In this document: positions 1,123-15,153 of the stretch, piece after piece | Layout of the letters: every line of letters starts with the position of its first letter | Position numbering within the stretch: the first letter of the stretch is position 1 | DNA from: Pseudomonadota bacterium | GTDB taxonomy: Bacteria; Myxococcota; UBA9042; PHBI01 | Length of the DNA stretch: 15,153 nucleotides | NCBI GenBank assembly: GCA_005772945.1 | Contig: SXIE01000405.1 | Location: 1 to 15,153 of the forward strand | Direction: 5' to 3' | Notes under the pieces: model-generated | Database searches by the model: none | Seen by the model: only the letters and a program-made list of their open reading frames with translations | Told to the model about the DNA's origin: nothing | Position numbers and translations under genes: made by a program

Positions 1123-1250
1123 CGCCGGAGCATGGCACGGCGCGCCGCCGGGCGTCGATCGCGCTGGCGTGCCGCGGCGTGACACCCGTTATGTTCGGCG
1201 CCCAGCGCCGGCGCAGCGGCGATCGGCTTTCGCCCGCAGGCGATGGCTCC

Positions 1251-1256
1251 TATACT
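1251..1256 (+). promoter_or_regulatory. Candidate -10 box of the envelope operon, implying a leaderless start
   Basis: TATACT matches five of six bases of the sigma-70 -10 consensus and is an AT-rich island in a GC-rich gap. The bases 17 bp upstream (about 1228-1233, TTTCGC) are a poor -35. Transcription from this box would begin near 1263-1264, at the ATG chosen for the next gene. No Shine-Dalgarno sequence precedes that ATG, so a leaderless mRNA is the simplest reading. Confidence 0.45.
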
Positions 1257-1263
1257 CGCGCGG

Positions 1264-2868
1264 ATGCACTGGGTCCGGGTCGCAGTGGCGCTATTGACTG
1301 GGCTCGTCCTGACGGCGCTCACGCTGTGGACGGGCACCTACTTCTTGCTGGGCACGAGCGCCGGGCAGGGCCTCCTCATGCCGCTGGTTCCCAAGGGTGT
1401 CGCGGTCGAGCGCGTCTTCTGGGGACCTGCACCGAACAGCGTACGCGCCGCGCGACTCCACATCGAGCGCGGCGCGCTGCGCGTCGACGCGCGCGCACGC
1501 GAGGCCACGATCGCCCTGCCGTCGTTCGACATCGCGGAGGTGACGCTCGACATCGCCAGCGTCACCGTGGACACGACGCGCCCGCCGCCGCCCGTCGTCG
1601 CCGCGCCCCCGACCGCGCCCAAGCGCCCCGCGCCCGCGATTCCGCGGTTGGCGGCCGCCATCGGCGAGCTCTGGTTCGTCGGCGACGGCGTCCAGGCCCA
1701 CGCGCGCGACGCCCGCGTCGAGACCGTCGGCGGGCGCATGGACGGCCCGGACGGCGCCCTTCCCGTCGCGCTGACAACCGGTGCGTGCCACGTCAGCTTC
1801 GCGCGCGGCCGGCGCGTGCTCGGCTGGGATCACTGCGACGCAGCCGCCACGATCGGCGCCGGCGGCAAGGAGCTCGCCATCGCCCGTCTCGGCCTCACGC
1901 GCGGGGGCGGCCCGGTTCTCAGCGCCAGCGGGCACATCTCGCTCGCCGGCGACAAGCCCAAGGCCGAGCTCGTCGCCGACGCCGCGCTGTCGCGGCTCGA
2001 GGCCGAGAGCGTCGCGGGCAAGCTCTTCCCTTGGGGTTTCGAAGCCCAAGGCGTCGTGCTGGCCCTGGACAAGGGTCTCATCGACGGCCGCATCGGCGCC
2101 CTGCACGCATCTGGTCTCGCGGCCGGCGCCGTGCAACTCGCCGACGTGTCCTTCACGTTGCCCCACCTCGCCGTGGCCCCAGGCCTCCTCATCCCGGCCA
2201 TCGACGTCGACGCCCGCGGCCTCTACGCGGCCCGCGCCGAAGGCCTCGGCTGGGCCCTCGAACACCTGACTTTCGGGCGCTTCCAGGGCGCGATCGAGAA
2301 GAAGCTCGAAGGGTTCGTCGAAGCCGGAAGCGTCGCCAACTGGCAGGTCGGCGAGACGGACCTCGGCCCGGTCGCGCTCGACGTCACCATCGTCATGGGG
2401 CTCACCGGCGGCACCATCGCCAGCGACCTCGCGACGGCCAGCGGCGCCCTCGGCGTCAAGAGCCGCCTCAAATCGAGCCCCATCACGAAGCGCACCACCT
2501 TCACCGTCGAGCTCGTCTTCGCCGCCCTCGACGCGCCTCTCATGGGATTCCTGCTCCACGACCTGACCGCCGACGAGCGCGCGACGCTCGGCCACCCGGG
2601 GGCCGGCCGCGCCGAGCTCGCCCTCGACCTCGAGCGCGAGGTCGGCGACGACGGCGCCCTCGCGTGGCTCGCAGAAATCGCCTGGGACGCTACTACCCTG
2701 CGCGGCCCCGGCCCGGACGGCCGCACCCCAGCCGCGCTCGAATGGGACGGCAGCGGCTGGAACGCCGTGGATCCGGAGGCTACGCCCGACCCGCTCGATG
2801 ACGACACCCCGGAGCCGCCCGCCGTACCCGAAACGCCCGACCCCACGCCGCCGGGCGCGACGCCTTGA
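1264..2868 (+). CDS. AsmA/TamB-like membrane-anchored protein
   Basis: This 534-residue protein has an N-terminal hydrophobic anchor (about residues 5-30) followed by a long, mostly beta-rich periplasmic-type region. After the anchor, 'VFWGPAPNS' (51-59) and an 'REATIAL' block (79-85) resemble the start of the TamB-like protein encoded just downstream. That suggests the two are related, although this one lacks a recognisable TamB C-terminal domain. A Pro/Ala-rich spacer lies at about 107-125, and the C-terminal 35 residues are Pro/Asp/Glu-rich and probably disordered. AsmA-like proteins are thought to form hydrophobic grooves or bridges across the periplasm. Here that role is inferred from resemblance and operon partners. 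I prefer the ATG at 1264, 7 bp after the -10 candidate. An in-frame ATG at 1243 would add seven residues but has AGG only 2 bp upstream. The stop overlaps the next start (TTGA, 2865-2868). Confidence 0.8.
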   Translation: MHWVRVAVALLTGLVLTALTLWTGTYFLLGTSAGQGLLMPLVPKGVAVERVFWGPAPNSVRAARLHIERGALRVDARAREATIALPSFDIAEVTLDIASVTVDTTRPPPPVVAAPPTAPKRPAPAIPRLAAAIGELWFVGDGVQAHARDARVETVGGRMDGPDGALPVALTTGACHVSFARGRRVLGWDHCDAAATIGAGGKELAIARLGLTRGGGPVLSASGHISLAGDKPKAELVADAALSRLEAESVAGKLFPWGFEAQGVVLALDKGLIDGRIGALHASGLAAGAVQLADVSFTLPHLAVAPGLLIPAIDVDARGLYAARAEGLGWALEHLTFGRFQGAIEKKLEGFVEAGSVANWQVGETDLGPVALDVTIVMGLTGGTIASDLATASGALGVKSRLKSSPITKRTTFTVELVFAALDAPLMGFLLHDLTADERATLGHPGAGRAELALDLEREVGDDGALAWLAEIAWDATTLRGPGPDGRTPAALEWDGSGWNAVDPEATPDPLDDDTPEPPAVPETPDPTPPGATP

Positions 2869-5800
2869 CCCTCCCTCGCGAAGACCCCGCGGGCCCTAGC
2901 GCCCCCCAGGCAGGGCTGCCCGCAACCCTCGGCACCCTCGCCAGGCCGCTTCGCTGGCTCGTCGCGGGCGTCCGCATCCTCTTCCTGGCCCTCGGTCAGG
3001 TGCTCCTCCTCGCCTACCTCATCGTCTCGCGCACGCTCCTCGCCTTCCTCGCGCTCTACCTCGTCCTCTACTTCCTGGTCGGCGCCAACCCGGTGCGCCA
3101 CCAACTCGAAGCCCTCATCTCGGACGCACTCCCCGGCGGCATCACCGCCGCCAGCGTCCAGTGGGGCCCCCTGCCCTGGCACCTCCGCATCGCGGACGGC
3201 CGCGTCCACGGCGCTCGCGGCGAGGACGTCATCCGCGCGCGCGCCGTCGAGGCGACGATCGACTGGGGCGAGACCGTGCCGCGCCTGGCCGACTGGATCC
3301 TCGCGCCGAACACGCACCCCTTCGGGCTCCGCTTCGAGCGCGTCGACGCGCTCGAGCCCTGGGTCCTCATCGAGGTCGACGACGACTACAACGTCGGCCT
3401 CGTACAGGCGTTCACCATCGCCGGTTGGCATCCCGCCGGCGCGCCCCCGGCCGACCCCGCGGCCCGACCGCCGACCTTCGACATCCAGGCGAACCTGGTC
3501 CGCGTCATCGACGGCTCGGGGCGCGTCGAGACGCCGTCCTTCTGGGTCGAGGCGCGCGGCCTCCAGACGGTCGCGAGCTTCCTCCTGAGCGGCGAGGATC
3601 ACGTCACGATCGACGCCAAGCGCACGACCATCACCGACGCCACGCTGGGCATCTATCAACTGGCGACCACCACCGGCGTCCCCGCGCGCGTCCAGGTCCA
3701 CGATCTCGTCGTCGAGAACTACGCCCAACGCACGCGCGCCCTGCGCTGGGCCCGCGCCACCGGACGCCTCGACCACGGCTCCATCGTCTCTACCGGCTGG
3801 CTCGACGCGACCCCGACACCCGCGATTTGGTCGGCCACGCTCGACGCCGCGCTCGACGACGGCGCCCACGAGACGCGCGACTTCACAGGCGGCGCCGTCG
3901 CCGGTCCGCTCGACGTCCACCTACGCGGCGGCGGGACCCTCAGCCAGCTCGATCTCGACGTGACCGCGACCTCGCCGCGCGCGACACTCGGCCCCCTCGC
4001 CGTCGATGATCTCACCCTGCACGCTCGCAGCCTCCCGCGCGCCACCCCCGCCAATCCCAGGCGGCACGCCCTCCCCCTCGACACCCTCGACGGTCGCGCG
4101 CTCGGCGGCCACGTCGCCCTCCCCGACGGCGCCTGGGAGTCCGCCGCGCCCGACGATCCCCGCGGCGACGCGCGCGACCTCGACGTCGGCTTCACCCTCA
4201 CCAACCTCGACGCCGCGCCCGCGCTCGGCGCCTTCATGCCCCTCGTGCCAGCCGTCCTCGCCGACCTCCTCGCCGGCCGCTACTCCGCGCGCGGCCGCCT
4301 CGCCCTGCGCTACGATCCCGCGACCGCCCAAACGCGCACCGAGCTCGACCTCTTCTCCGCAGGCGTCCTCCTCAGCAACCCGCCCCATCCGCTGCTCGGC
4401 CGCCCCATCACCCTCTCGGGCCAGCTCGCGACGCGCCAAGGCCCCGCCGCCCCCGCCGACCTCGCAGCGGCCAAAGGCGTCCCCTTCGTCGACGAGCTCG
4501 ACCTCGCCCAGGTCGTCCTCGACAGCGGCGAGGACCGCCTGCGCCTTGCCGGCCACCTCGATCTCGCGCGCCAGACGCTCGACCTCGAGCCCTACCTGCG
4601 ACTCGGCGATCTGCGCCCGCTCGGCGACACCGTCGGGCTCCCAGGCATCGCCGGGCGCTTCGTCGTCAAGTCGATGCGCGCGACCGGCACCCTCACCGAT
4701 CCGCGCATCGCCGGCACCATCAACTGGACCGACGCCGCCCTCGACGGGCACCCGCTCGTGCAGGTCACCGGCCGCGTCGAGCTCGCCGGTGGCCGCCTCG
4801 ACGTCAGCCAACTCCGCAGCGCAAACCCTCTTGGAACCTTCGCCCTCGACGGCCAGATCCGCCTCTTCGAGCGCGGCTTCCACCCCGACCCTCAGCTCCC
4901 GTTCGTTCTCCGCGAACTCCAGATCGACCACCTCGCCCTCGGCGCCCTCGACGATCTGCTCGGGCCCGCCGCGCGCATCGACCTCGACGCGCAGAACCTC
5001 GCGGGCCACGCCGCGGGCGGCGCTCTCGCGGCCCTCTCGAGCCTCGCGGGCCACGCGCTCTTCACCGTCCACAGCGCGGTCATCGCCGGCGAGCCCATCG
5101 AATCGATCGTCGCGCACATCGACCCGGCCCACGATCGGATCAACGTCGAAGAGCTCCTCGTCACGACCCCCGCCGGCGCACAATTGCGCGGCGATGCAAT
5201 CATCTACAAGACCCCCGGCGGCATCGCCTCGACCCTCGCCGGCGGCCAGCTCGAGGGGCACCTGGCGCTGAGCGGCCTCACCTTGCCCGCCCTCAAGGCC
5301 GTCCAGCGCCTCGCCCCCCAGCTCGCCGGCAGCGTCGACGCGCGCCTGGTCCTCGGCGGCACGACGCGGCGCCCGACCTTCATCGGCAGCGTCGATCTCG
5401 CCGACGTCGCCTGGGGCGAGGTCGCGCTCGGCGACGCCTCCTTGGCACTCCAGACCCTGCCCGCGACCGGCCCCGACCCGACCTCCCAGCTCGATATCTC
5501 GGCCCACGACAACGCCTTCTTCACCGGCTTCACGCTCGAAGCGGCCACGCTCGCGCTCGACGGCCTCCGCCCCGCCCGCCTCCTGGCGACGATTCGCGCC
5601 AAGGACCTCGCGCTCGAGCGCATCATCCCCGCGGCCAAGAGCGACAAGCTCGAGGTCAGGCTGAGCGGCGTCGCCGACCTCGACCTCCCGTTCGGCGCCG
5701 GCACGCCCCATCTCAGCTTGCGCGCCGCCCCCGGCGACCTGCGCCTGAACCTCCCCGAGCGCGCCGTCGGCTGGGTCAACACCACCGAGCTCCACCTCAC

Positions 5801-7394
5801 CGAGGACGCCGGCCGCCTGCAACTCGACCCGCTCGGCCTCGGCCCCCCGAGCGCCCTCACCGGCGCACCCACCCTCGCCCAAGGCGGCCTGCGCGCCTGT
5901 GGCGCGCTCGATCCCAACGGCCTCGATCTGCAGATCGCGGGCGCCGTCGAGCTCGCCTTCATCCCCGGCATCAGCGGCGCCTTCTCGGTCGCCGCGGGCC
6001 GCCTGCGCATCACGCGCGACGCGGCGCTCGAGAGCGCCATGGCAGACTTGCACGCAGCTGCATGCTTCCCCGATCACCCGCCCATCATGCGCCTCTCCGG
6101 CCCGCCCTCCGCGCCTGCCATCGCCGGCACCTTCGAGACCGAAGGTGTCAACCTCGTGCCCCGCGGCGCCGGACGCGAGCTGCGCTTCACCGAGCACAGC
6201 ACCGTCGTCGTGACCTCGATCCCGCGTGGCCCCGCGAGTCGCGCCAACCTGCGCCTCACCTCGCCGGTCGGCATCGGTCTACGCGGCGAGCTCGACGACG
6301 GCACCTTCGCCGTGAGCGGCGAGTTGCAGCTCGCCGACTTCGCCCCGAGCCGCGCCGATCTCGACCTCACCGGCACCGACCTCTTCGTCCAGAGCCCCGG
6401 CGTCATCGCGCTGACCGCCTCGCCCCACGCCCGGATCCGCGCCCGCGGCCTCGACACCGCCACCCCCGACATCATCGTCGAAGGCGACCTGGCCATCAGC
6501 GAGGGCCGCTTCACCAAGAGCTTCGACACGCTCGCCCAGGCGGTCGGCTCCGCCATCGGCGCCAACACCGACGCGTACTCGCGCTCCGTCCTCGACGACC
6601 TGCCCTGGCTCGCCAACGTGCGCCTCGCCGTCGACATCAAGGCCGACGACTTCGCCATCCGCACCGCCGTCCCGCTCGTCCGCACCGACCTCTCAGCGCG
6701 CCTCGATCTGGGTCTCGCCGGCACGCTCGCCCGCCCCCAGCTGACCCGTCGCATCGATCTCCTCCCCGGCGGCAAGCTGACCTACCTCATCTTCGAGCGC
6801 ACGTTCCAAGTGACCCAAGGCGCGCTCGACTTCGACGGCGACCCCGCGCGCCCGATCGTCGACCTCACCGCGCAGAGCGTCATCACCTACCTCGCGCGCG
6901 CCTCGACCTCGACCCAGGACGAAGACGAAAAGGACGTGACCGTCATCTTGCGCATCACCGGTCGCGTCCCCGAGCTCAAGATCGAGCTCAGCGCCGACGA
7001 CCCCACCTTCGACCAGGCCGACATCCAGAGCCTGCTCATCACCGGCAAGCCCCGCAGCGAGCTCGACCGCGCCCAGGAGAGCGGCGTCGTCTCGGCCGAC
7101 CTCGCCAACGTGCTCAACGCCGTCTTCGCCTCGCCGTTCGTCAAGACGGCCTCCGTCGGGGTCGGGCAGGCCGGCTCGCTCGAGTACCGCGTCGGCACCT
7201 GCTTCGCCCCGAACCTCTGCCTCGACACGACCACCGTCGCGGCCGACACCGAAACGACCATCCGCGCGAAGCTCTCTTTCACGCTCGGCGATAACCTCGT
7301 ATGCGAGGGAACGCTGCGCCGAAGCGACACCGCCACCAGCGCCAACCAGAAGACCTACGAAGCCCGTTGCCGCTACCGCATCCCACTCGAGTGA
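2865..7394 (+). CDS. tamB: TamB-like translocation and assembly module protein (DUF490 family)
   Basis: This 1509-residue protein has an N-terminal hydrophobic region (two stretches, about 38-54 and 58-73), a very long repetitive beta-rich middle and a C-terminal TamB/DUF490 domain (about 1180-1509). The C-terminal domain is the clearest family mark: a Gly-Gly-Lys-Leu strand, then 'FQVTQGALDFDGDPARPIVD' with the family's 'G.i.F......P.ld..A' pattern near residue 1315, then repeated 'V.I...G....L...L.SDP' type strands and 'DIQSLLITGK'. TamB spans the periplasm from the inner membrane and contacts an Omp85 barrel, helping outer-membrane protein insertion or lipid movement. The start is TTG at 2865, overlapping the previous stop by 4 bp. 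No ATG or GTG lies nearby in frame and no Shine-Dalgarno is seen, so translation is probably coupled. The end overlaps the Omp85 gene by 4 bp (GTGA), which strongly supports joint function. The length is similar to or above E. coli TamB (about 1260). Confidence 0.9.
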   Translation: MTLPREDPAGPSAPQAGLPATLGTLARPLRWLVAGVRILFLALGQVLLLAYLIVSRTLLAFLALYLVLYFLVGANPVRHQLEALISDALPGGITAASVQWGPLPWHLRIADGRVHGARGEDVIRARAVEATIDWGETVPRLADWILAPNTHPFGLRFERVDALEPWVLIEVDDDYNVGLVQAFTIAGWHPAGAPPADPAARPPTFDIQANLVRVIDGSGRVETPSFWVEARGLQTVASFLLSGEDHVTIDAKRTTITDATLGIYQLATTTGVPARVQVHDLVVENYAQRTRALRWARATGRLDHGSIVSTGWLDATPTPAIWSATLDAALDDGAHETRDFTGGAVAGPLDVHLRGGGTLSQLDLDVTATSPRATLGPLAVDDLTLHARSLPRATPANPRRHALPLDTLDGRALGGHVALPDGAWESAAPDDPRGDARDLDVGFTLTNLDAAPALGAFMPLVPAVLADLLAGRYSARGRLALRYDPATAQTRTELDLFSAGVLLSNPPHPLLGRPITLSGQLATRQGPAAPADLAAAKGVPFVDELDLAQVVLDSGEDRLRLAGHLDLARQTLDLEPYLRLGDLRPLGDTVGLPGIAGRFVVKSMRATGTLTDPRIAGTINWTDAALDGHPLVQVTGRVELAGGRLDVSQLRSANPLGTFALDGQIRLFERGFHPDPQLPFVLRELQIDHLALGALDDLLGPAARIDLDAQNLAGHAAGGALAALSSLAGHALFTVHSAVIAGEPIESIVAHIDPAHDRINVEELLVTTPAGAQLRGDAIIYKTPGGIASTLAGGQLEGHLALSGLTLPALKAVQRLAPQLAGSVDARLVLGGTTRRPTFIGSVDLADVAWGEVALGDASLALQTLPATGPDPTSQLDISAHDNAFFTGFTLEAATLALDGLRPARLLATIRAKDLALERIIPAAKSDKLEVRLSGVADLDLPFGAGTPHLSLRAAPGDLRLNLPERAVGWVNTTELHLTEDAGRLQLDPLGLGPPSALTGAPTLAQGGLRACGALDPNGLDLQIAGAVELAFIPGISGAFSVAAGRLRITRDAALESAMADLHAAACFPDHPPIMRLSGPPSAPAIAGTFETEGVNLVPRGAGRELRFTEHSTVVVTSIPRGPASRANLRLTSPVGIGLRGELDDGTFAVSGELQLADFAPSRADLDLTGTDLFVQSPGVIALTASPHARIRARGLDTATPDIIVEGDLAISEGRFTKSFDTLAQAVGSAIGANTDAYSRSVLDDLPWLANVRLAVDIKADDFAIRTAVPLVRTDLSARLDLGLAGTLARPQLTRRIDLLPGGKLTYLIFERTFQVTQGALDFDGDPARPIVDLTAQSVITYLARASTSTQDEDEKDVTVILRITGRVPELKIELSADDPTFDQADIQSLLITGKPRSELDRAQESGVVSADLANVLNAVFASPFVKTASVGVGQAGSLEYRVGTCFAPNLCLDTTTVAADTETTIRAKLSFTLGDNLVCEGTLRRSDTATSANQKTYEARCRYRIPLE

Positions 7395-10300
7395 GCCGCC
7401 ACCGGCCCTCCCGTACGCCCACCGCGTCTCGCGGCGCGTTGCGCATCGCGCTCGCCATCGCAGTGCTTTGTACACCAAGCATCTCCCGCGCCGCCGACGA
7501 GCCGCCCGATCCGATCGGCCCGACGCCCGACCGCCCCTCCCGGACGCTTCCTCCCGAAGAGGTCGCGGCTTGCGTCGGCGCTACGCTCCACCACACCGTT
7601 CTCGAAGGCTGCCGCGCCGACACCTGCGCGACCCGCCCCGCACTCCTCGCGTTGCTCGACGCCATCCCGCGCGGCCGCCCACTCGACCTCACCGACCTGG
7701 CCCGCTTCCACGCGGGCCTCGACGGCAGCCAGCTCGTGCGCGACGCGACCGTCACGTGCTTCGCACGCTCTCTCGGAGGCTGCGCCTCCGACGCCGTGCC
7801 GTCGCATGGCTCCAGCACGTGCCGCAGCGACCCGGCCGGCGACGTGCTCGTCGCGACCGTCGTCCCCGCGTCCTTCGTTCGCCAGGTGGCCATCCGCGGC
7901 AACGACCACTTCCGCGCGCACGACCTCATGAAGCGCGTCTTCCTGCGCCCCGGCACCCCGATCGCCGTCGACCCCGCGCGTCCGCTCGACAACGCGGGCA
8001 TCGCCCGCCAGGTCGAGTCCCTGCTCCGCCTCTACCGCAGCGCCGGCCTCGATCTCGCCAAGATCACACCGATCGTCACCCCGCACTCGCCGATCCACGT
8101 CGACCTCGCCTTCGTCATCGACGAGGGCCCGCGCCTGCGCGTCGACTCGGTCGACGCCAAGCACATCCACCATGGCCAGCCCGATCCCGGGGGCCTCGCC
8201 TGCCCGACCATCGAGCCGCGCCGCCTCGAGCGCCTCCTCGGCGTGGGCGCCGGCGACATCGTCACACGCACGACCGAGCGCCAGCTCCACGACAAGCTCC
8301 GCCGCGCCTTTCAAGCCGCCGGCTACGAGCGCCCCGCGCTCAGCATCGACTTCGGCGACGACCAGCGCCTCGTCGTTCGCGTCGAGACCACCCACTGTTG
8401 GCTCGTGCGCGTCTGGCAACGCAACGACGACGATCCCCGCGCCGCTGAGGCGCTCTCGTTCCGCTGGCGCGACCCCGTTCACGCCACGACCCAGCCCGAT
8501 CAGGGCACGCCCTACACCCGCTCGGAGCTGGCCGACTGGAACACCGTCCTGCCCTTTGGCGAGTCCGGCTCCTTCGACAAGACCGAAGCCACGCGCGGCC
8601 TCGACGCGATCGCGCGCACCGTCCGCGCCCAAGGTTACGCCTTTGCCGAGGTCGCCCTCGAGCACCGCGAGCTCGCGCTGCGCCCCGAGCGCCGCGGCCT
8701 CGACTCCGAGGTCACCGGCATCGTCGACTACGTCATCACGCTCAACCTCGGCCGGCGCCTCCGCGCGATCCGCTTCGAGGGCGTCCGCGCCTTCGACGAG
8801 GCCGACCTGCGCGCCACGATGCAGACCCAACCCAACGGATTCTTCAGCGGCGGCGGCGCCTTCGACGAGCTCCGCGTGATGGCCGATCTCGACGCCCTGC
8901 GACGCTTCTACCGTGAGCGCGGCTACCTCGCGATGGGCTTCCGGGACGGCGGCGCCGCCACCGATCCCGGCACCCCAGCGACCTCGCTCGCGAAGAGCGC
9001 AGAGCGCTTGCCCTCGGAGAACCTCATCCGCTCGGTGCTCTCCGAAGAAGACGAGCGCGTCACCTGGCGCTACACCCTCGGCACGCGCGGCTTCCGACTC
9101 GTCAAACACGTCGGCGATCCGGATATCGAACTCGTCCTCCGAATCGACGAAGGCCGCCCGACGACCCTCGCCGCGATCCACGTCGAGGGCGCAACGCTCG
9201 TCGACACCGCCAAGCTCGTCGCGATCACCGGCCTCACCCCCGGCCGCCCCTTTGGCGACCGCCCGCTCGCGGACGCGCTCGAGCGCCTCCACCGCCACTA
9301 CGCCCGCATCGGCCACTACCGCATGAAGGCCACGACCGCCTGCCAGCTCGGCGACGCCGCCGAGCTCGTCGCCTGCACCCCCGACAACCTCGCCCAGCAC
9401 CCGGCCATCACGCTCGAGATCGCCATCGACGAGGGCCCCGAGATCAAGGTCGGCGCGGTCGTCTGGCGCGGCGCCTACGAGACCGACCCGCACATCCTGG
9501 TCCGCGATCTCCCGAAGCGCGGCGAGCGCCTCGACCTCGACCGCGTCGACGACGCCGTCCGCAAGTTGCGCACCCTCTCCATCTTCAACTCGGTGCGCGT
9601 CGACGTCGTCGGCCTCGAGGGCGACGCCCCGAGCGACGAGGTCACGCTCGTCGTCGCCGTCGAAGAGACCCGCTATCGCTTCCTCGACTTCGCGTTTGGC
9701 CTGCGCTCGATCCAACGCGAGAACATCGGCCACCTCCCGGCCTGGTTCGCGACGCTCGCCGGCCTCTTCGTCGGCGAGACCGATCGCACCCACAGCGGCT
9801 TCGGGCGCTCTTTTCCGCTCGACATCCCGGACCTCCTCTTCACCTTCGACTTCGAGTACCTCGACCTGAACGAGGCCGGCCGCGGCAACCAGCTCCGCCT
9901 GCCCTTTTCGGCCGGCTTCTCGCTCTCGCAGTTCTTGCGCGTCGCGACCTTCGACCCGAGCTACACCTTCCCGCGCCTGCTCGACTCGCCCGTGACCCTC
10001 ACCATCCGCGGCATCGCCGAGCTCGATCGCGTCACCGATCCGCTCGACCGCCTCGAGGTCGGCGCCGAGGCCGACCTCTCCTTCCCGATCATGAAGCAGA
10101 TGCTCGCCGGCTTCACCCTGCGCCAGGGCTGGATCCAGCTCGAGCCGCCCGACGCCACCTGCGTCTTCTGCCTCAGCGCGCCGGCCTTCACATTCGGCTC
10201 CGGCCTCACCCAAGACGCCGCCGAGCAAGCCGCCGACGCCCTCGCCTGTGACGACGACTCGGACAGCGACGCCTGCGCCGACAAAGCCTTTCGCCCGCAA

Positions 10301-10978
10301 CTCACCTTCTCGTTCCACTGGCGCTGGGACACCCAAGACACGCCGCTCAACCCGCGGCGCGGCGTCGTCCTCGCAGCCTCGACCAGCTTCATCGTCGATC
10401 GCGATCGCGAGTCCTCCTCCGAGGTCTTCAACCAGTTCGTCAAGTGGGAGCTGAGCGCGCGCGGCGTGATCTCCCTCGGCGATCTCGTCATCGCGGCCTT
10501 CGCGCACTACGGCGGCGCCGTGACGCTCGGCGACCGCGACGCCTTCCTCCCCGCCAACGACCGCTTCACCCTCGGGCAGAACAACGGCCTGCGCGGCTTC
10601 ACCGACAACGGTCTCTGCCGCTACGACAAGCACGGCACGCTCGACCCGACCTGCCCCGACACCTTCGGCGGCAACGTCCTCCTCAATGGCTCGCTCGAGC
10701 TGCGCGTGCCCCTCTTCAAGCTCTGGATCTTGGGCTTCTGGGCGGGCGCTTTCTTCGACGCCGGCGCCCTCGCCGAGGACCACGCCAAGCTCTACCCCGC
10801 AAGCTTCCGCTTCGCCGCGGGCCTGGGCCTGCGCATCCTCGTCGGCGACCTTGTCCCTGTCCGCTTCGACGTCGGCTTCCCGGTCTTCGAGCGGCGCTGC
10901 CTCGCCTACACGAGCGACGGCGCGTGCGTGCGCGAGAAGCCGAGCCAATTCAACTTCGGCTTCCTCTACACATTTTGA
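7391..10978 (+). CDS. Omp85-family outer-membrane protein (TamA/BamA-like) with expanded POTRA array
   Basis: This 1195-residue protein starts at a GTG overlapping the tamB stop. A signal peptide is clear: a basic N-terminus, a hydrophobic core at about 16-30 and cleavage after Ala34 or Ala35 ('SRAAD'). A region of about 50-150 has several Cys and may be a degenerate first POTRA. It is followed by at least five POTRA-like units, with strand-turn starts near residues 160, 250, 457, 585 and 680, such as 'IRFEGVRAF' and 'AIHVEGATL', each closing on a 'V.I.EG' strand. The barrel (about 757-1195) contains the 'RWDTQDTPLNPRRG' block near 980 and the loop-6 signature 'GLRGF' near 1066. It ends in a terminal Phe after alternating aromatic residues, the classic BAM-recognised signal. 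E. coli TamA (3 POTRA, 577 aa) and BamA (5 POTRA, 810 aa) are both much shorter. Coupling to tamB favours a TamA-like role. A BamA-type role cannot be excluded. Confidence 0.9.
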   Translation: MSRHRPSRTPTASRGALRIALAIAVLCTPSISRAADEPPDPIGPTPDRPSRTLPPEEVAACVGATLHHTVLEGCRADTCATRPALLALLDAIPRGRPLDLTDLARFHAGLDGSQLVRDATVTCFARSLGGCASDAVPSHGSSTCRSDPAGDVLVATVVPASFVRQVAIRGNDHFRAHDLMKRVFLRPGTPIAVDPARPLDNAGIARQVESLLRLYRSAGLDLAKITPIVTPHSPIHVDLAFVIDEGPRLRVDSVDAKHIHHGQPDPGGLACPTIEPRRLERLLGVGAGDIVTRTTERQLHDKLRRAFQAAGYERPALSIDFGDDQRLVVRVETTHCWLVRVWQRNDDDPRAAEALSFRWRDPVHATTQPDQGTPYTRSELADWNTVLPFGESGSFDKTEATRGLDAIARTVRAQGYAFAEVALEHRELALRPERRGLDSEVTGIVDYVITLNLGRRLRAIRFEGVRAFDEADLRATMQTQPNGFFSGGGAFDELRVMADLDALRRFYRERGYLAMGFRDGGAATDPGTPATSLAKSAERLPSENLIRSVLSEEDERVTWRYTLGTRGFRLVKHVGDPDIELVLRIDEGRPTTLAAIHVEGATLVDTAKLVAITGLTPGRPFGDRPLADALERLHRHYARIGHYRMKATTACQLGDAAELVACTPDNLAQHPAITLEIAIDEGPEIKVGAVVWRGAYETDPHILVRDLPKRGERLDLDRVDDAVRKLRTLSIFNSVRVDVVGLEGDAPSDEVTLVVAVEETRYRFLDFAFGLRSIQRENIGHLPAWFATLAGLFVGETDRTHSGFGRSFPLDIPDLLFTFDFEYLDLNEAGRGNQLRLPFSAGFSLSQFLRVATFDPSYTFPRLLDSPVTLTIRGIAELDRVTDPLDRLEVGAEADLSFPIMKQMLAGFTLRQGWIQLEPPDATCVFCLSAPAFTFGSGLTQDAAEQAADALACDDDSDSDACADKAFRPQLTFSFHWRWDTQDTPLNPRRGVVLAASTSFIVDRDRESSSEVFNQFVKWELSARGVISLGDLVIAAFAHYGGAVTLGDRDAFLPANDRFTLGQNNGLRGFTDNGLCRYDKHGTLDPTCPDTFGGNVLLNGSLELRVPLFKLWILGFWAGAFFDAGALAEDHAKLYPASFRFAAGLGLRILVGDLVPVRFDVGFPVFERRCLAYTSDGACVREKPSQFNFGFLYTF

Positions 10979-10981
10979 CCA

Positions 10982-11098
10982 CTACGCCTTCTGACCACCG
11001 TGGCCCCCGAGAGCGCCGCGCACCTTGCCGGCCGCCGTCGCGCGCTTTTGCCCACTTGCATCATTGACATCGCGAATCGCGTTCGCGATATTGCCCAC
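10982..11098 (-). CDS. Doubtful small protein of 38 residues
   Basis: A minus-strand GTG at 11098 is preceded, 5 bp away, by GGAAGGGGG (complement of 11104-11112), a good Shine-Dalgarno match. The frame runs to a TAG just 4 bp beyond the end of the Omp85 gene. It encodes a Gly/Ala/Lys/Arg-rich peptide, including 'NIANAIRDVNDASGQK', that reads like soluble helical protein rather than random GC-rich frame. About 71 percent of third positions are G or C, lower than in the neighbouring genes. It overlaps the promoter-like signal and inverted repeat at 11064-11092, so the two readings compete. No family is recognised. Confidence 0.2.
   Translation of the reverse strand: MGNIANAIRDVNDASGQKRATAAGKVRGALGGHGGQKA
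11064..11092 (+). promoter_or_regulatory. Candidate sigma-70 promoter for the OmpA-like gene
   Basis: TTGACA (11064-11069) is a perfect -35 consensus. Seventeen bases later GATATT (11087-11092) matches four of six -10 positions. The spacing is ideal, and the signal sits in the 228-bp gap ahead of the + strand gene starting at 11207, giving a leader of about 108 nt. The spacer is almost entirely filled by an inverted repeat. Confidence 0.45.
11069..11089. repeat. Inverted repeat with 8-bp perfect arms, a candidate operator
   Basis: The arms ATCGCGAA (11069-11076) and TTCGCGAT (11082-11089) are exact reverse complements separated by 5 bp. Each arm also contains the shorter palindrome TCGCGA. 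The repeat lies between, and touches, the candidate -35 and -10 boxes, the classical position for a dimeric repressor site. It could instead be coincidental symmetry in GC-rich DNA or part of the small minus-strand frame. Confidence 0.5.
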
Positions 11099-11194
11099 GT
11101 CGGCCCCCTTCCGTGTCGAGCAGTCGCTCGCGGTCGTCCTCTGCCTCGCAGTCAGGACGACGCCGCGTTGCGCACCCGCTCGATGGCAGCAGCC

Positions 11195-11199
11195 AGGAG
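11195..11199 (+). promoter_or_regulatory. Shine-Dalgarno sequence that fixes the start at 11207
   Basis: AGGAG sits 7 bp before the ATG at 11207. It decides between in-frame candidates at 11000, 11183, 11207 and 11219. Residues encoded upstream of 11207 are Arg/Ala-rich and do not look coding. Confidence 0.75.
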
Positions 11200-11206
11200 C
11201 CCCCCA

Positions 11207-12406
11207 ATGGCCTTCGCCATGCAGGAACGCAAGACCACGTCGGCCGCGACCAACGTGGCCCAGACCAACAACGTGACGGCGGCCACCGACAAGAAGGCCC
11301 AGCTCCGCGGCCTCACCTTCGACGAGGGCACCAAGGCGCTGACGCCCGAGGGTGGCAAGCAGACCGACACCCCGAAACCGGACGCCAAGAACGACAAGGG
11401 ACCGCCTCCCGAGATCGTGGCGCTGGGCCTCAAGAAGGTGAACGTCGACTGCACGCTCGAGGCGTGGGCCGCGCTCAACGAGACCGAGCGCGCCGGCGTC
11501 CTGACCTTCCTCGTCGAGAAGGAGCGTCAGTGCCTGGAGCAGAAGAAGCTCAAGCGCTCCAAAGTGACCATCTCGATGGGCAAGAAGTTCGAGAGCGTCG
11601 ACGAGAAGGTCGTCGACGAGCAGAACAAGAAGGCCCAGGACAATATCGCGCTCATGAACGCCGGCAAGCCGCCGATGGGCGACAAGACGATCGGCGTCAA
11701 GGAAGGCGAGCCCCAGGTCACGGAGACCACGACCGAGAAGATCACCAAGGTCCCCATCACCGAAACCAAGCAGATGAAGGACCACTTCGACGCCGCCGGC
11801 TCGACCTTCGACAGCGCCGACTACAAGCCGGAAGACATGCAGCAGGGCGGGGTCATCGCGCTGCTCGACCAGGCCGCCGAGAAGATCAAGGAGTACCTGG
11901 CGCTCGACCCCAACGCCAAGGTCACGCTGACGGTCATCGCCAGCGAGTCGCACGTCACGAACCCCGATCAGTTCAAGGAGCCAGGCAGCCTCGCGGCCGC
12001 ACGCGCCGCCAACGGCGTCGAGCTCGCCAAGGCGCACTTCGCGGCCCTCGGGATCCCGACCGACAACCTGTCGTTCACGACCCAGAACCTGGGCGCGAAC
12101 GGGCCGAAGTGGGATCCGAAGGCCGGCATCAGCAAGCACGACCCGATGTACACCGCGCACCAGTTCGTGCGCCTCGAGGTCGCCGCCGAGGTCGAGGTCG
12201 AGAGCGACGCCACCGAGGACGTCAAGCAAACGACCACCGAAGAGACGCGCACCCAGGACGCGCAGGTCGTGAAGATGTTGGTCGACGACAAGCACCGACT
12301 CGGCGGCTTGCACCTGAACAACAAGACGTTCACGCCCAAGAAGACCAAGAAGTCGCGCTCCGGCCGGACCCGAAAGCGCAATTGGGGCAGCGTGAGCTGC
12401 CCGTAG
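11207..12406 (+). CDS. Lysine-rich protein with divergent OmpA-like domain and no signal peptide
   Basis: This is a 399-residue hydrophilic protein. Residues 1-70 are Thr/Lys/Pro-rich and include 'AQLRGLTFDEGTKALTPEG' (31-49). Residues 75-190 are charged and helical with two Cys (82 and 109). Residues about 190-328 follow the OmpA C-terminal layout: a first strand 'HFDAAGSTFDSADYKP', a long helix, a strand 'AKVTLTVIASES', 'SLAAARAANGVELAKAHFAALGIP' in the place of 'LS..RA..V...L...GI', and 'HQFVRLEVA' for 'NRRVEI'. The 'GHTD' Asp that helps bind peptidoglycan is not preserved, whereas an Arg in the last strand (322) is. A very basic tail (about 375-391) follows. There is no signal peptide, lipobox or membrane segment, so export by the usual route is not indicated. 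Its cellular role is unknown. Proteins linked to contractile injection systems sometimes carry a short motif like the 31-49 stretch, but this is a weak resemblance and no such genes are present here. Confidence 0.8.
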   Translation: MAFAMQERKTTSAATNVAQTNNVTAATDKKAQLRGLTFDEGTKALTPEGGKQTDTPKPDAKNDKGPPPEIVALGLKKVNVDCTLEAWAALNETERAGVLTFLVEKERQCLEQKKLKRSKVTISMGKKFESVDEKVVDEQNKKAQDNIALMNAGKPPMGDKTIGVKEGEPQVTETTTEKITKVPITETKQMKDHFDAAGSTFDSADYKPEDMQQGGVIALLDQAAEKIKEYLALDPNAKVTLTVIASESHVTNPDQFKEPGSLAAARAANGVELAKAHFAALGIPTDNLSFTTQNLGANGPKWDPKAGISKHDPMYTAHQFVRLEVAAEVEVESDATEDVKQTTTEETRTQDAQVVKMLVDDKHRLGGLHLNNKTFTPKKTKKSRSGRTRKRNWGSVSCP

Positions 12407-12467: not shown

Positions 12468-14723
12468 TCAGCGCGTCGTCGGCGCCCGCGTCCGATACAG
12501 CTTGTCGACGTACGCCACCAGCTCGAAGACGCTCGTCTTGTAGCCGAGGTCGCTGCGCGCGTCGCCCCACCTATTTGCCGCCATATCGGCGTACAAACTC
12601 CCTTTTTGGCACTCTCGCTGGAGCCGCGCGTTCGGGATCTGGCGCACCGCGCAGCTCGCCTCGTCATCGGCCTCGCAGCGGGGATCCACGCAGCCCCGAA
12701 CCCCATCACGCTCGTCACCACACGCGCACTCGCGGCCGCCGGTCTCGCGATCGACGAAGCAGCACGCGCCGTCCGGAAACACCATGATCGCTTTTGGCAA
12801 TCTGCCATCGCCCATGAAGAGTCCCGTCAGCACCGCCGCCGGTCCTAGATCATTGGCGTCCTGCCCGAGCCCATGGAGGAAGTACACCGTCGGGTAGCGC
12901 CGCGTCGCGTTCTCGGGCGCGTCGTAACCGGGCGGCACCGCGATGGTGAACCCGCGCCGCGCCGCCAGCGCCTGCGAGTAGAAGCTCGGGCTCGTGGCGA
13001 CCGGCATCGGCAGATCGTAGGTCCCGTCGACATCCGGCTCGGGCATCCGCCGAATCGCCACCGCCAGAAACGCGGCGATGCGATTGAGCGCATCGATCGA
13101 CGTCCCGACGTGCTTGCCGTCGCCGTCGTCGATCTCCTGCTGCGTCGCATTGGGATTGCCATATTCGACATACACATCACGCCCGATCGCCGCGGGCGCC
13201 AAATCCGCCGCGAACACACCCTGGGTGAAGCCGAGGGGATCGACCTCGGGCAAGAGGCTCCCCTCGCGGCCACCGAAGTCGTGGTACACGCGCGGCTCGC
13301 GTCCCCGCGCGCGCAGGGCCGCGACGATGTTGCGCGCCACGACCCCGGCATGCAGCGCATCGCGGATCCCCGCGTCGACCCAGAAATCCATCCCGGCGAG
13401 CGTCGCCTCCGACGCGCTCCGAATCTTCGTATCCGCATCGTGCGCGACCAGATTCGCAAACGCCGGCACCGCGTCCCAGACCCCGTTGCCCTCGCCCAGA
13501 TCGGGCGCCCCGCTCACGCTCGCGGACACCCCGTCGACCCCGAGGTCCGAGAACGGCTCGCCCAGCTCGTACCCATCGTTGCGCTCGGTCCCGCTCGGAT
13601 TCCCATCCCACGCATAGTCATCGTGATTCGGGTCGTCCCCGAGCCCGCCGGGCGCCCGCGCGCCCACCGCGACACATCCGCCCGCGCCGTCCTCGCGCGC
13701 GTTGTCGCAGCCATCGACCCCGACGTCCTCGAAGCGCTCCCACGGGTTGAGAAACAGGGGTTCGCCGTAGTCGCGCCGCCCGTTCGCATTGATGTCGACC
13801 GCGAGCAGCGCGCTGATCGACCGGTCGCGCGGCACCGTCACATCGAAGTCCGACGGCAAGAGTCCCGGCTGCGCGGCATGATCGATATCGCAGAGCGGGA
13901 TCACCGGATACGCGCCGACGGGGTTGTATTCGAGGTTGTAGGACAGCGCCTGGGGGATCGGCACGGGCGCCGCACAGCGCTCGGCCTCGGAGTGTGCGCG
14001 CCACCAGGCGAGGTCGACGCCGATCGGAAACAGCGGCGACAGCGGGTTCATCGGCAGCGCCAAGTTCCCGTATGCACACGAAAAATTGTCGATGATCTCG
14101 GCATAGAAGCCGCGCGTCATGGTGATCCCGTTCGTGTCGTAGTGCAGATGGTTGAACTCCTGCGCGTACTCGAGCGGCGAGTACGTCGCCCCCGGACCGC
14201 ACGTCACCGGCGGCACCGCCAGCGGGTCGTCCAGGTCGGTCCGCGCCGCGAGCTGCTCCAGCGGACAGAACCCGCGAAAGTGCAGGCGCAGCATCTGCGC
14301 CATCATGTAGGTCGAGTCGGCGTAGCCGCCGAGCGCCCCCACGACATCGAAGGTCCCCGGGTGCTCGAGCGCGATGTTGATCGCGACCGCCCCCATCGAC
14401 ATCCCGCCGATCGCGCGGAACGTCGATGCCCGCGGCGGCGTCACCTCCACGTCCGCCTGCGCATCGTCCGACACCGCATCGACCTCGGACGCGTCGGTCT
14501 CCGGGCCGCTCGCGTCGCCCCCAACGCCGGTCTCCGACCCTGCCGCCGCGTCGAACTCGTCGACCTCGACGCCCGCCATCGCATCGTTCACGTCGGTCCG
14601 CACCTCGACGGCTTCGGCCCCCTCGGCGCTGCACGCCGCGCCCGTCGCCAAAACGGCGAGACACGCGCGCACCAGCCACGGACACGAACACGCACCGAGA
14701 GAAACGGGACGATCGGATCTCAT
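12468..14723 (-). CDS. Lipoprotein esterase of the alpha/beta-hydrolase fold, apparently circularly permuted
   Basis: This 751-residue protein starts at the ATG at 14723. The frame extends upstream to 14849, but those residues are not signal-like. A basic N-terminus and hydrophobic stretch lead to 'ATGAAC', so Cys31 may be lipidated. The usual Leu at -3 is replaced by Gly. Residues 38-94 are an acidic linker. 'AIGGMSMGA' supplies the nucleophile elbow (Ser109). 'DAGIRDALH' (Asp455) and 'GKHVGTSID' (His538) fit the other triad members. 'YPTVYFLHGLGQD' (His617-Gly618) is the esterase-D/antigen-85-like oxyanion block, and the protein ends 'ELVAYVDKLYRTRAP'. That ending is the segment normally just before the nucleophile strand. 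Between Ser and Asp is an Asp/Gly-rich insert with an EF-hand-like loop (310-321), and residues 654-705 form a Cys-rich insert. The likely role is hydrolysis of a carboxylic ester at the cell surface or in the periplasm; the substrate is unknown. It converges on the OmpA-like gene with a 61-bp gap. Confidence 0.85.
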   Translation of the reverse strand: MRSDRPVSLGACSCPWLVRACLAVLATGAACSAEGAEAVEVRTDVNDAMAGVEVDEFDAAAGSETGVGGDASGPETDASEVDAVSDDAQADVEVTPPRASTFRAIGGMSMGAVAINIALEHPGTFDVVGALGGYADSTYMMAQMLRLHFRGFCPLEQLAARTDLDDPLAVPPVTCGPGATYSPLEYAQEFNHLHYDTNGITMTRGFYAEIIDNFSCAYGNLALPMNPLSPLFPIGVDLAWWRAHSEAERCAAPVPIPQALSYNLEYNPVGAYPVIPLCDIDHAAQPGLLPSDFDVTVPRDRSISALLAVDINANGRRDYGEPLFLNPWERFEDVGVDGCDNAREDGAGGCVAVGARAPGGLGDDPNHDDYAWDGNPSGTERNDGYELGEPFSDLGVDGVSASVSGAPDLGEGNGVWDAVPAFANLVAHDADTKIRSASEATLAGMDFWVDAGIRDALHAGVVARNIVAALRARGREPRVYHDFGGREGSLLPEVDPLGFTQGVFAADLAPAAIGRDVYVEYGNPNATQQEIDDGDGKHVGTSIDALNRIAAFLAVAIRRMPEPDVDGTYDLPMPVATSPSFYSQALAARRGFTIAVPPGYDAPENATRRYPTVYFLHGLGQDANDLGPAAVLTGLFMGDGRLPKAIMVFPDGACCFVDRETGGRECACGDERDGVRGCVDPRCEADDEASCAVRQIPNARLQRECQKGSLYADMAANRWGDARSDLGYKTSVFELVAYVDKLYRTRAPTTR

Positions 14724-14829: not shown

Positions 14830-15153
14830 ATGGCGAGCTTCGAAATCACGGTCGAGAGCCCAGAGACGAAGCCCGTGCGGCTGTTGGTGGGTGGCGAGAA
14901 CTGGGTCGATGCCTGGCACGAGGGCGCGCGCGCGCTGGGCGACGATCCCTACGCCGCGGACGCCGTGTGCGTCGTCAAGTCCGACGGTTCCTTCCACCTC
15001 CAGCTGCCGCGCGCCCGCCGCACGTTCATCGTGCGCGGCCCGGTCGACCTGCCGCCTTCGAGCGTCGCGCCCGCCCGCGGCCACCCCCTCCTCGTGCCCG
15101 AGCACGGCGGCCCGCCGATTCGGATCCACACGCCGACCAGTCGCGGGGCGCCG
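14830..15153 (+). CDS. N-terminal part of an unrecognised protein
   Basis: The ATG at 14830 opens a frame of 108 codons with no stop before the window edge. The first 70 residues look like a compact mixed alpha/beta domain, with 'FEITVESPETKPVRLLVGG', then a helical 'WVDAWHEGARALG' and strands ending 'RRTFIVRG'. A Pro-rich stretch follows from about residue 75. There is no signal peptide, so the protein is probably cytoplasmic. Such a small N-terminal domain followed by a linker could precede a signalling or regulatory domain encoded beyond the edge, but nothing here shows that. It is divergent from the lipoprotein esterase. Third positions are strongly G/C, as expected for a native gene. I do not recognise the family. 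Confidence 0.65.
   Translation, partial: MASFEITVESPETKPVRLLVGGENWVDAWHEGARALGDDPYAADAVCVVKSDGSFHLQLPRARRTFIVRGPVDLPPSSVAPARGHPLLVPEHGGPPIRIHTPTSRGAP

Follow-up and report, generated by a model that had tools for sequence, protein, structure and literature searches.

How does a protein come to carry all the catalytic blocks of an alpha/beta-hydrolase in the wrong order along its chain? The question is raised by the gene P0001, at positions 12468..14723 on the minus strand of a contig from a Pseudomonadota bacterium (SXIE01000405.1, assembly GCA_005772945.1; placed in the Myxococcota by GTDB); the whole stretch analysed, 15,153 nucleotides, is called the window below. P0001 encodes 751 amino acids plus a stop codon, a probable lipoprotein, and an initial annotation had read it as a circularly permuted alpha/beta-hydrolase. 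The permuted order itself is confirmed, as more than chance, and its interpretation as a circular permutation is supported. In the best explanation, which we hold with high confidence, P0001 is a secreted lipoprotein with a genuine circular permutation of a hydrolase of the CE1/Pfam Esterase type, folded as one domain.

The canonical order in such enzymes is the His-Gly (HG) oxyanion block, then Ser, Asp and His; the P0001 family departs from it with Ser-Asp-His-HG. The nucleophile is Ser109 in GGMSMG (codon at 14397-14399; all features of the gene given here and below lie on the minus strand), the acid Asp455 in AGIRD (13359-13361), the base His538 in GKH (13110-13112), and the oxyanion-block dipeptide, placed by alignment, His617-Gly618 in FLHGLG (12870..12875); these residue numbers had been given correctly in the initial annotation. 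The Pfam Esterase profile PF00756 scores P0001 at 39.2 bits against a cut-off of 22, in two stretches, the better of which places residues 97-138 on profile positions 111-153. Compared with PDB entries of CE1 feruloyl esterases, P0001 residues 552-652 match the N-terminal part and residues 99-139 the nucleophile region. It follows from these half-by-half matches that the halves of P0001 are swapped relative to ordinary esterases.

Scoring a rotated sequence against esterase profiles had been proposed as a check, and the rotated order scores better than the native one. Rotated P0001, residues 560-751 followed by 100-560, rises from 39.2 to 45.2 bits with Pfam Esterase, and its match to the feruloyl esterase 7xrt improves from E 1.3e-4 to 2.8e-8; one of the two stretches aligned to 7xrt crosses the join, running from the C-terminal helix (ELVAYVDKLYRTRAPTTR) into FRAIGGMSMG. 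A hidden Markov model (HMM) of the canonical order was built from 19 ordinary-order esterases: 17 open reading frames (ORFs) from genomes of the same phylum, one from L004 (a record named Chloroflexi) and the database protein P0157. Twenty-four ORFs with an HG block were considered for it; L008, L101, L103 and L104 were dropped because a nucleophile match was absent, and L089 as a duplicate. Scored with this model, 181 permuted proteins have a median best stretch of 57.3 bits as they stand and 84.0 after rotation; the rotated score is the higher in 173/181, and both blocks are covered by the best stretch in 171 of the 181 rotated sequences and 1 of the 181 native ones. Random cuts gave a median of 84.3 bits against 84.0 for the chosen cut, which is not a true negative control as these cuts fall inside the middle only; the gain is equal because any cut inside the middle retains the new join. 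At the level of sequence scores, this shows that the gain is due to the join and not to the exact position of the cut.

The same model locates the break. In native order the match of the C-terminal half stops at model position 123 (10-90% range 121-126), with a median of 6 residues left to the C-terminus, and that of the N-terminal half restarts at position 127 (125-128; all medians from 180 of the 181 proteins). Because the match ends nearly abut, the cut, in the loop that precedes the nucleophile strand, is clean. Rotation closes this gap, 123 to 127, at the join, in agreement with the proposal that joining the C-terminus to the nucleophile strand would rebuild a standard domain. The halves match adjoining parts of one ordinary domain, which is restored when their termini are joined, the mark of a natural circular permutation.

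The order is not private to this contig. Two protein searches, each scoring only the approximately 8000 candidates sharing most words, yielded 157 proteins with the query. Segment HMMs (E <1e-3) found nucleophile, acid/His and HG segments in that order, each once, in 153/157, the query and its identical copy P0002 included; P0068 and P0153 are fragments consistent with the order, P0157 is the ordinary-order esterase already mentioned, and P0156 matches nothing. Among 30 loci from a genome search 29 have the permuted order, six of them repeating database proteins; at the remaining locus, L038, near a contig edge, the nucleophile match is absent. A third search started from the two shortest members and gave 169 proteins, of which the best 120 were examined and 119 were new. 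These compact relatives, of 500-710 amino acids, place the nucleophile before the HG-equivalent block in 119 of the 119 listed, with all three segments at E <0.01 in 108. An assembly error, or an ordinary esterase gene recently rearranged in place in this contig only, therefore has practically no probability left and was rejected; the initial annotation had named homologues with the same order as a check, and they are found in other contigs and assemblies.

The permuted clade so collected comprises 272 database sequences (153 plus 119, counting both the query and its identical copy, and some with cut N-termini), named, where a name is given, hypothetical protein, enterochelin esterase-like enzyme or alpha/beta hydrolase-fold protein. 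In the phylum of one relative, G003, at least 180 of 377 genomes have some match and at least 99 have one at E <1e-79; these are lower bounds with three candidates scored per genome, and the order was checked in the 30 loci. A few of the compact relatives listed are labelled Candidatus Binatia, Dormibacteraeota, Deferrisomatales or Alphaproteobacteria. An initial scan of genome contigs gave no relative and a second gave four, three of them permuted and the fourth, in L004 (1385-2158), an esterase of ordinary order, the only kind seen in that record; in the phylum of L004, 0 of 151 genomes had a match at E up to 1e-30, in a search without positive control. Thirteen of 276 database proteins (P0069, P0077, P0109, P0219 and nine others) are annotated to begin (MGA...) with the Met that directly follows the catalytic Ser and so lack the nucleophile, probably because the start was called wrongly. 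The longer members at six loci (L028, L030, L032, L033, L035 and L036) have an extra insertion of approximately 70 residues in the HG half, where the HG segment spans approximately 145 residues instead of 78.

Conservation was read from a family alignment of 181 rows, 152 database proteins and 29 locus ORFs, six of which repeat a database protein. The Ser109 column holds Ser in 177 rows and gaps in the other four, Asp455 is Asp in 181/181, and His538 is His in 180/181; the sole exception, P0155, is an alignment slip, its His322 being invariant in alignment A3. Gly618 is Gly in 181/181. Pro may stand before this invariant Gly, for example in VIYFLPGSGMW of P0063. Cysteines 250, 278, 654 and 705 are present in 179/181 rows, 153 in 171 and 175 in 172. 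Cys31 is Cys in 132, with 39 gaps and 10 other residues; a lipobox-like pattern, a sequence pattern only, occurs in 118/150 of the large members and 64/119 of the compact relatives.

Do the two halves meet in one fold? P0001 gives one confident structure model, and a permuted hydrolase can be aligned to both of its halves, more strongly so in the model of the relative P0155. The hydrolase is the type 2 polyhydroxybutyrate (PHB) depolymerase PhaZ of Penicillium funiculosum (2d80/2d81), the best full-length structural match, and the alignment to 2d81 is sequential across both halves at 14-15% identity. The predicted structure thus accords with the suggestion that both halves would form a single domain.

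Several results weigh against one folded, working enzyme. Most canonical CE1 structures align to one half only, as separate pieces would, and when the P0155 model is ranked by Foldseek E-value, 30 chains of feruloyl and related esterases (approximately 120-150 columns each) stand above 2d81, which comes at rank 31 yet aligns over 293 columns. Mean-field direct coupling analysis (DCA) of the 181 rows (146 effective) found no enrichment of contacts between the halves, such pairs taking 20 of the top 120 places (17%), fewer than the 35% that they form of all pairs; A99-T750, among the top pairs, would fit old neighbours, but both positions are at alignment ends. The half-only alignments and the coupling result would fit a chain with two partial hydrolase-like domains that fail to complement one another, either as incomplete domains or through a domain-swapped dimer, which we consider very unlikely. 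His617 is His in 158 of the 181 rows and Pro in 20, and in the compact relatives (P0158-P0276) HG becomes GG, both Gly being invariant in 37 aligned rows and found in 107/119 by a loose pattern. Such losses would suit a binding or sensor lipoprotein that retains the hydrolase fold and is no enzyme; the near-complete conservation of the Ser, Asp and His columns would be unexpected in a pseudoenzyme, and we regard this alternative as improbable. Nor does context help: in 23 regions, the family ORF being recognised in 22, no neighbour recurs beyond close relatives and none of the window's neighbours recurs. Recurring neighbours are confined to small groups (e.g. L086/L087, L084/L085 and L077/L079/L080/L081), so no functional hint comes from context.

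The permuted single-domain hydrolase that we favour has a known counterpart. Passages of PMC2666664 on extracellular PHB depolymerases, which list P. funiculosum, place the oxyanion hole of the type 2 catalytic domain C-terminal to the triad, so that type 2 enzymes share with the P0001 family the order Ser-Asp-His then oxyanion residue; like the family's putative esterases, they are described there as extracellular serine esterases. The same type 1/type 2 division appears in the relevant part of PMC11893044. The residue zones that a section of PMC7034887 gives for 2d81 (nucleophile zone A39, S40; acid zone T123; base loop H155; oxyanion zone C250, L251) run in the same order along the chain. 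The fold is permuted in the same way in both, as the sequential structural match indicates. Hisano et al. 2006, on the 2d80 structure, reportedly calls that fold circularly permuted. Given the type 2 precedent, this kind of permutation is already known, and the view of P0001 as an unusual oddity did not hold: P0001 belongs to a large family, and natural permutation with the same order has been seen before.

One permutation event might therefore be shared, the family being a branch of the type 2 depolymerases or the reverse. The common catalytic order and the rank of the type 2 enzyme as best full-length structural match speak for this; sequence comparison points elsewhere. The best matches of three family profiles are 7xrt (4e-20, in two stretches with profile A1, and 3e-25) and 8z91 (3.5e-26), with 7xrt at 5e-14 for the third, and 2d80/2d81 are not among the matches listed at E up to 10 for the three profiles (for one, the best 60 of 78). 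Together with the low structural identity this makes a shared event possible but rather doubtful. A motif search for type 2 PhaZ in 356 genomes gave one match, a 359-aa ORF whose order looks ordinary by eye. The nearest sequence matches to both halves are the CE1/feruloyl esterases (PF00756; 7xrt, 1jjf) and 8z91; they share with P0001 the GxSMG elbow, the HG block and the acid block, and differ in their ordinary order, with HG before the nucleophile. Neither group accommodates the size of P0001: feruloyl esterase chains of 268-388 residues cannot fit its 300-residue insertion, and 2d80 has 318 residues, to which P0001 adds that insertion, with its EF-hand-like loop, and a probable lipid anchor. 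The parts of the superfamily survey PMC11878206 on peripheral strands report permuted b1 and b2 in alpha/beta-hydrolases, likewise a departure from standard strand order; there b1 and b2 are permuted and reversed, whereas in P0001 the whole first half of the domain has moved.

A tree of 57 permuted sequences (29 large and 28 compact, all with three segments) and 19 canonical ones, with blocks in ancestral order, has one branch, with support 100/97, that separates the two sets. Its scope is a narrow canonical sample found with the family's own profile, permuted rows cut into blocks, and no outgroup. On this sequence sample the tree fits a single permutation event for the clade, which probably took place once, before the sampled clade diverged. 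Since permutation could arise by duplication and trimming, tandem intermediates might be expected; none, with a block present twice, was found in the 157 proteins at E <1e-3, and several of these proteins have N-terminal extensions of at least 200 residues. We give an even chance to the fuller account that one ancient permutation, independent of the type 2 PHB depolymerases and at the same place before the nucleophile strand, founded a large CE1-like esterase clade, comprising lipoproteins that are frequent in the relatives' phylum as well as compact forms, a few of which carry labels from other groups, as listed above.

The layout of P0001 can now be followed along the chain. Starting from an upstream GTG at 14849 would lengthen the protein by 42 residues; the ATG is favoured because it yields the signal peptide directly. 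The predicted signal peptide, residues 1-31 (14631..14723), ends on the lipobox cysteine C31, judged by alignment and the lipobox-like pattern. An acidic linker, residues 32-98 (14430..14630), follows, recognised by composition (19 D/E and 2 K/R in 67 residues) and by mostly low model confidence, with pLDDT <50 at residues 27-75 and 77-87. A lipid anchor and acidic linker thus probably stand directly before the nucleophile strand, as had been proposed. Strand b5 and the nucleophile elbow, residues 99-136 (14316..14429), correspond by profile and PDB matches to mid-chain positions of an ordinary esterase. A large insertion, the putative cap region, residues 137-440 (13404..14315), with conserved cysteines and acidic loops, then separates this block from the acid block. 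It includes an EF-hand-like loop, DINANGRRDYGE, residues 310-321 (13761..13796), a probable Ca2+ site by its conservation: D310 and E321 are invariant in 181/181 rows, position 312 is N or D in 181/181, G315 is kept in 174 and D318 in 171. Acidic EF-hand-like loops are also visible by eye in the compact relatives.

Strand b7 and the acid block, residues 446-472 (13308..13388), hold the invariant D455, whose acid role is suggested by homology. Strand b8, H538 and the last helix, residues 514-558 (13050..13184), would be the ancestral C-terminus by model and alignment. That the old termini are linked was correct, though the extent of 558-590 was not: helix 542-558 ends and strand 580-583 begins in the model, and DSSP confines the linker to approximately residues 559-579 (12987..13049). 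The ancestral N-terminal half, assigned by homology matches, is now C-terminal, residues 580-751 (12471..12986), with the first strands, the HG block and the helix before b5. By model and HMM match this helix, residues 728-742 (12498..12542), leads into the nucleophile strand in ordinary esterases; here the chain ends 9 residues past it.

The rest of the window bears other genes. Frames at 2865-7394 (+; PF04357, E 1.7e-31) and 7301-10978 (+; POTRA/Omp85, PF01103, E 3.4e-29) resemble a TamA/TamB-like pair, the longest frame of the second overlapping the TamB-like gene by 94 bases. A creatininase-family amidohydrolase lies at 136-1185 (-; PF02633, E 1.5e-31). ORFs 1243-2868 (+) and 11000-12406 (+) are without convincing Pfam match; the C-terminal part of the latter looks OmpA-like, by eye only.

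How might such a protein work? The chain would have been cut in the loop just before b5, and the old C-terminal helix joined to the old first strand by the linker of approximately 20 residues. The new N-terminus would supply a lipid anchor and acidic tether running straight into b5 and the Ser109 elbow, an entry made possible by the permuted order. As in type 2 PHB depolymerase, a single sheet would be built from both halves, which should bring the HG block together with Ser109, Asp455 and His538 in one predicted active-site pocket. The large putative cap, with its EF-hand-like loops and conserved cysteines, may select a bulky ester. Export, lipid anchoring, disulphides, Ca2+ binding and ordinary serine-esterase chemistry are all predicted from sequence features. 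The most likely role would be that of an outer-membrane, calcium-stabilised carboxyl-ester hydrolase acting on a bulky or polymeric ester; by analogy, CE1 similarity suggests polysaccharide esters and the PhaZ-like structure polyesters as putative substrates.

A description of this permuted esterase family was not found in the open-access literature, which does not show its absence from print; what is new is this large permuted clade and not the kind of permutation. For annotation the clade carries a warning: profile searches show two fragments rather than one domain, and some starts are probably mis-called just after the catalytic Ser. It also offers natural material on how far a catalytic domain tolerates termini moved next to its nucleophile. 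If the permutation is indeed independent of that in type 2 PHB depolymerases, the junction before the nucleophile strand would have served evolution at least twice as a privileged site, and a possible advantage would be a flexible membrane tether attached right beside the active-site serine.
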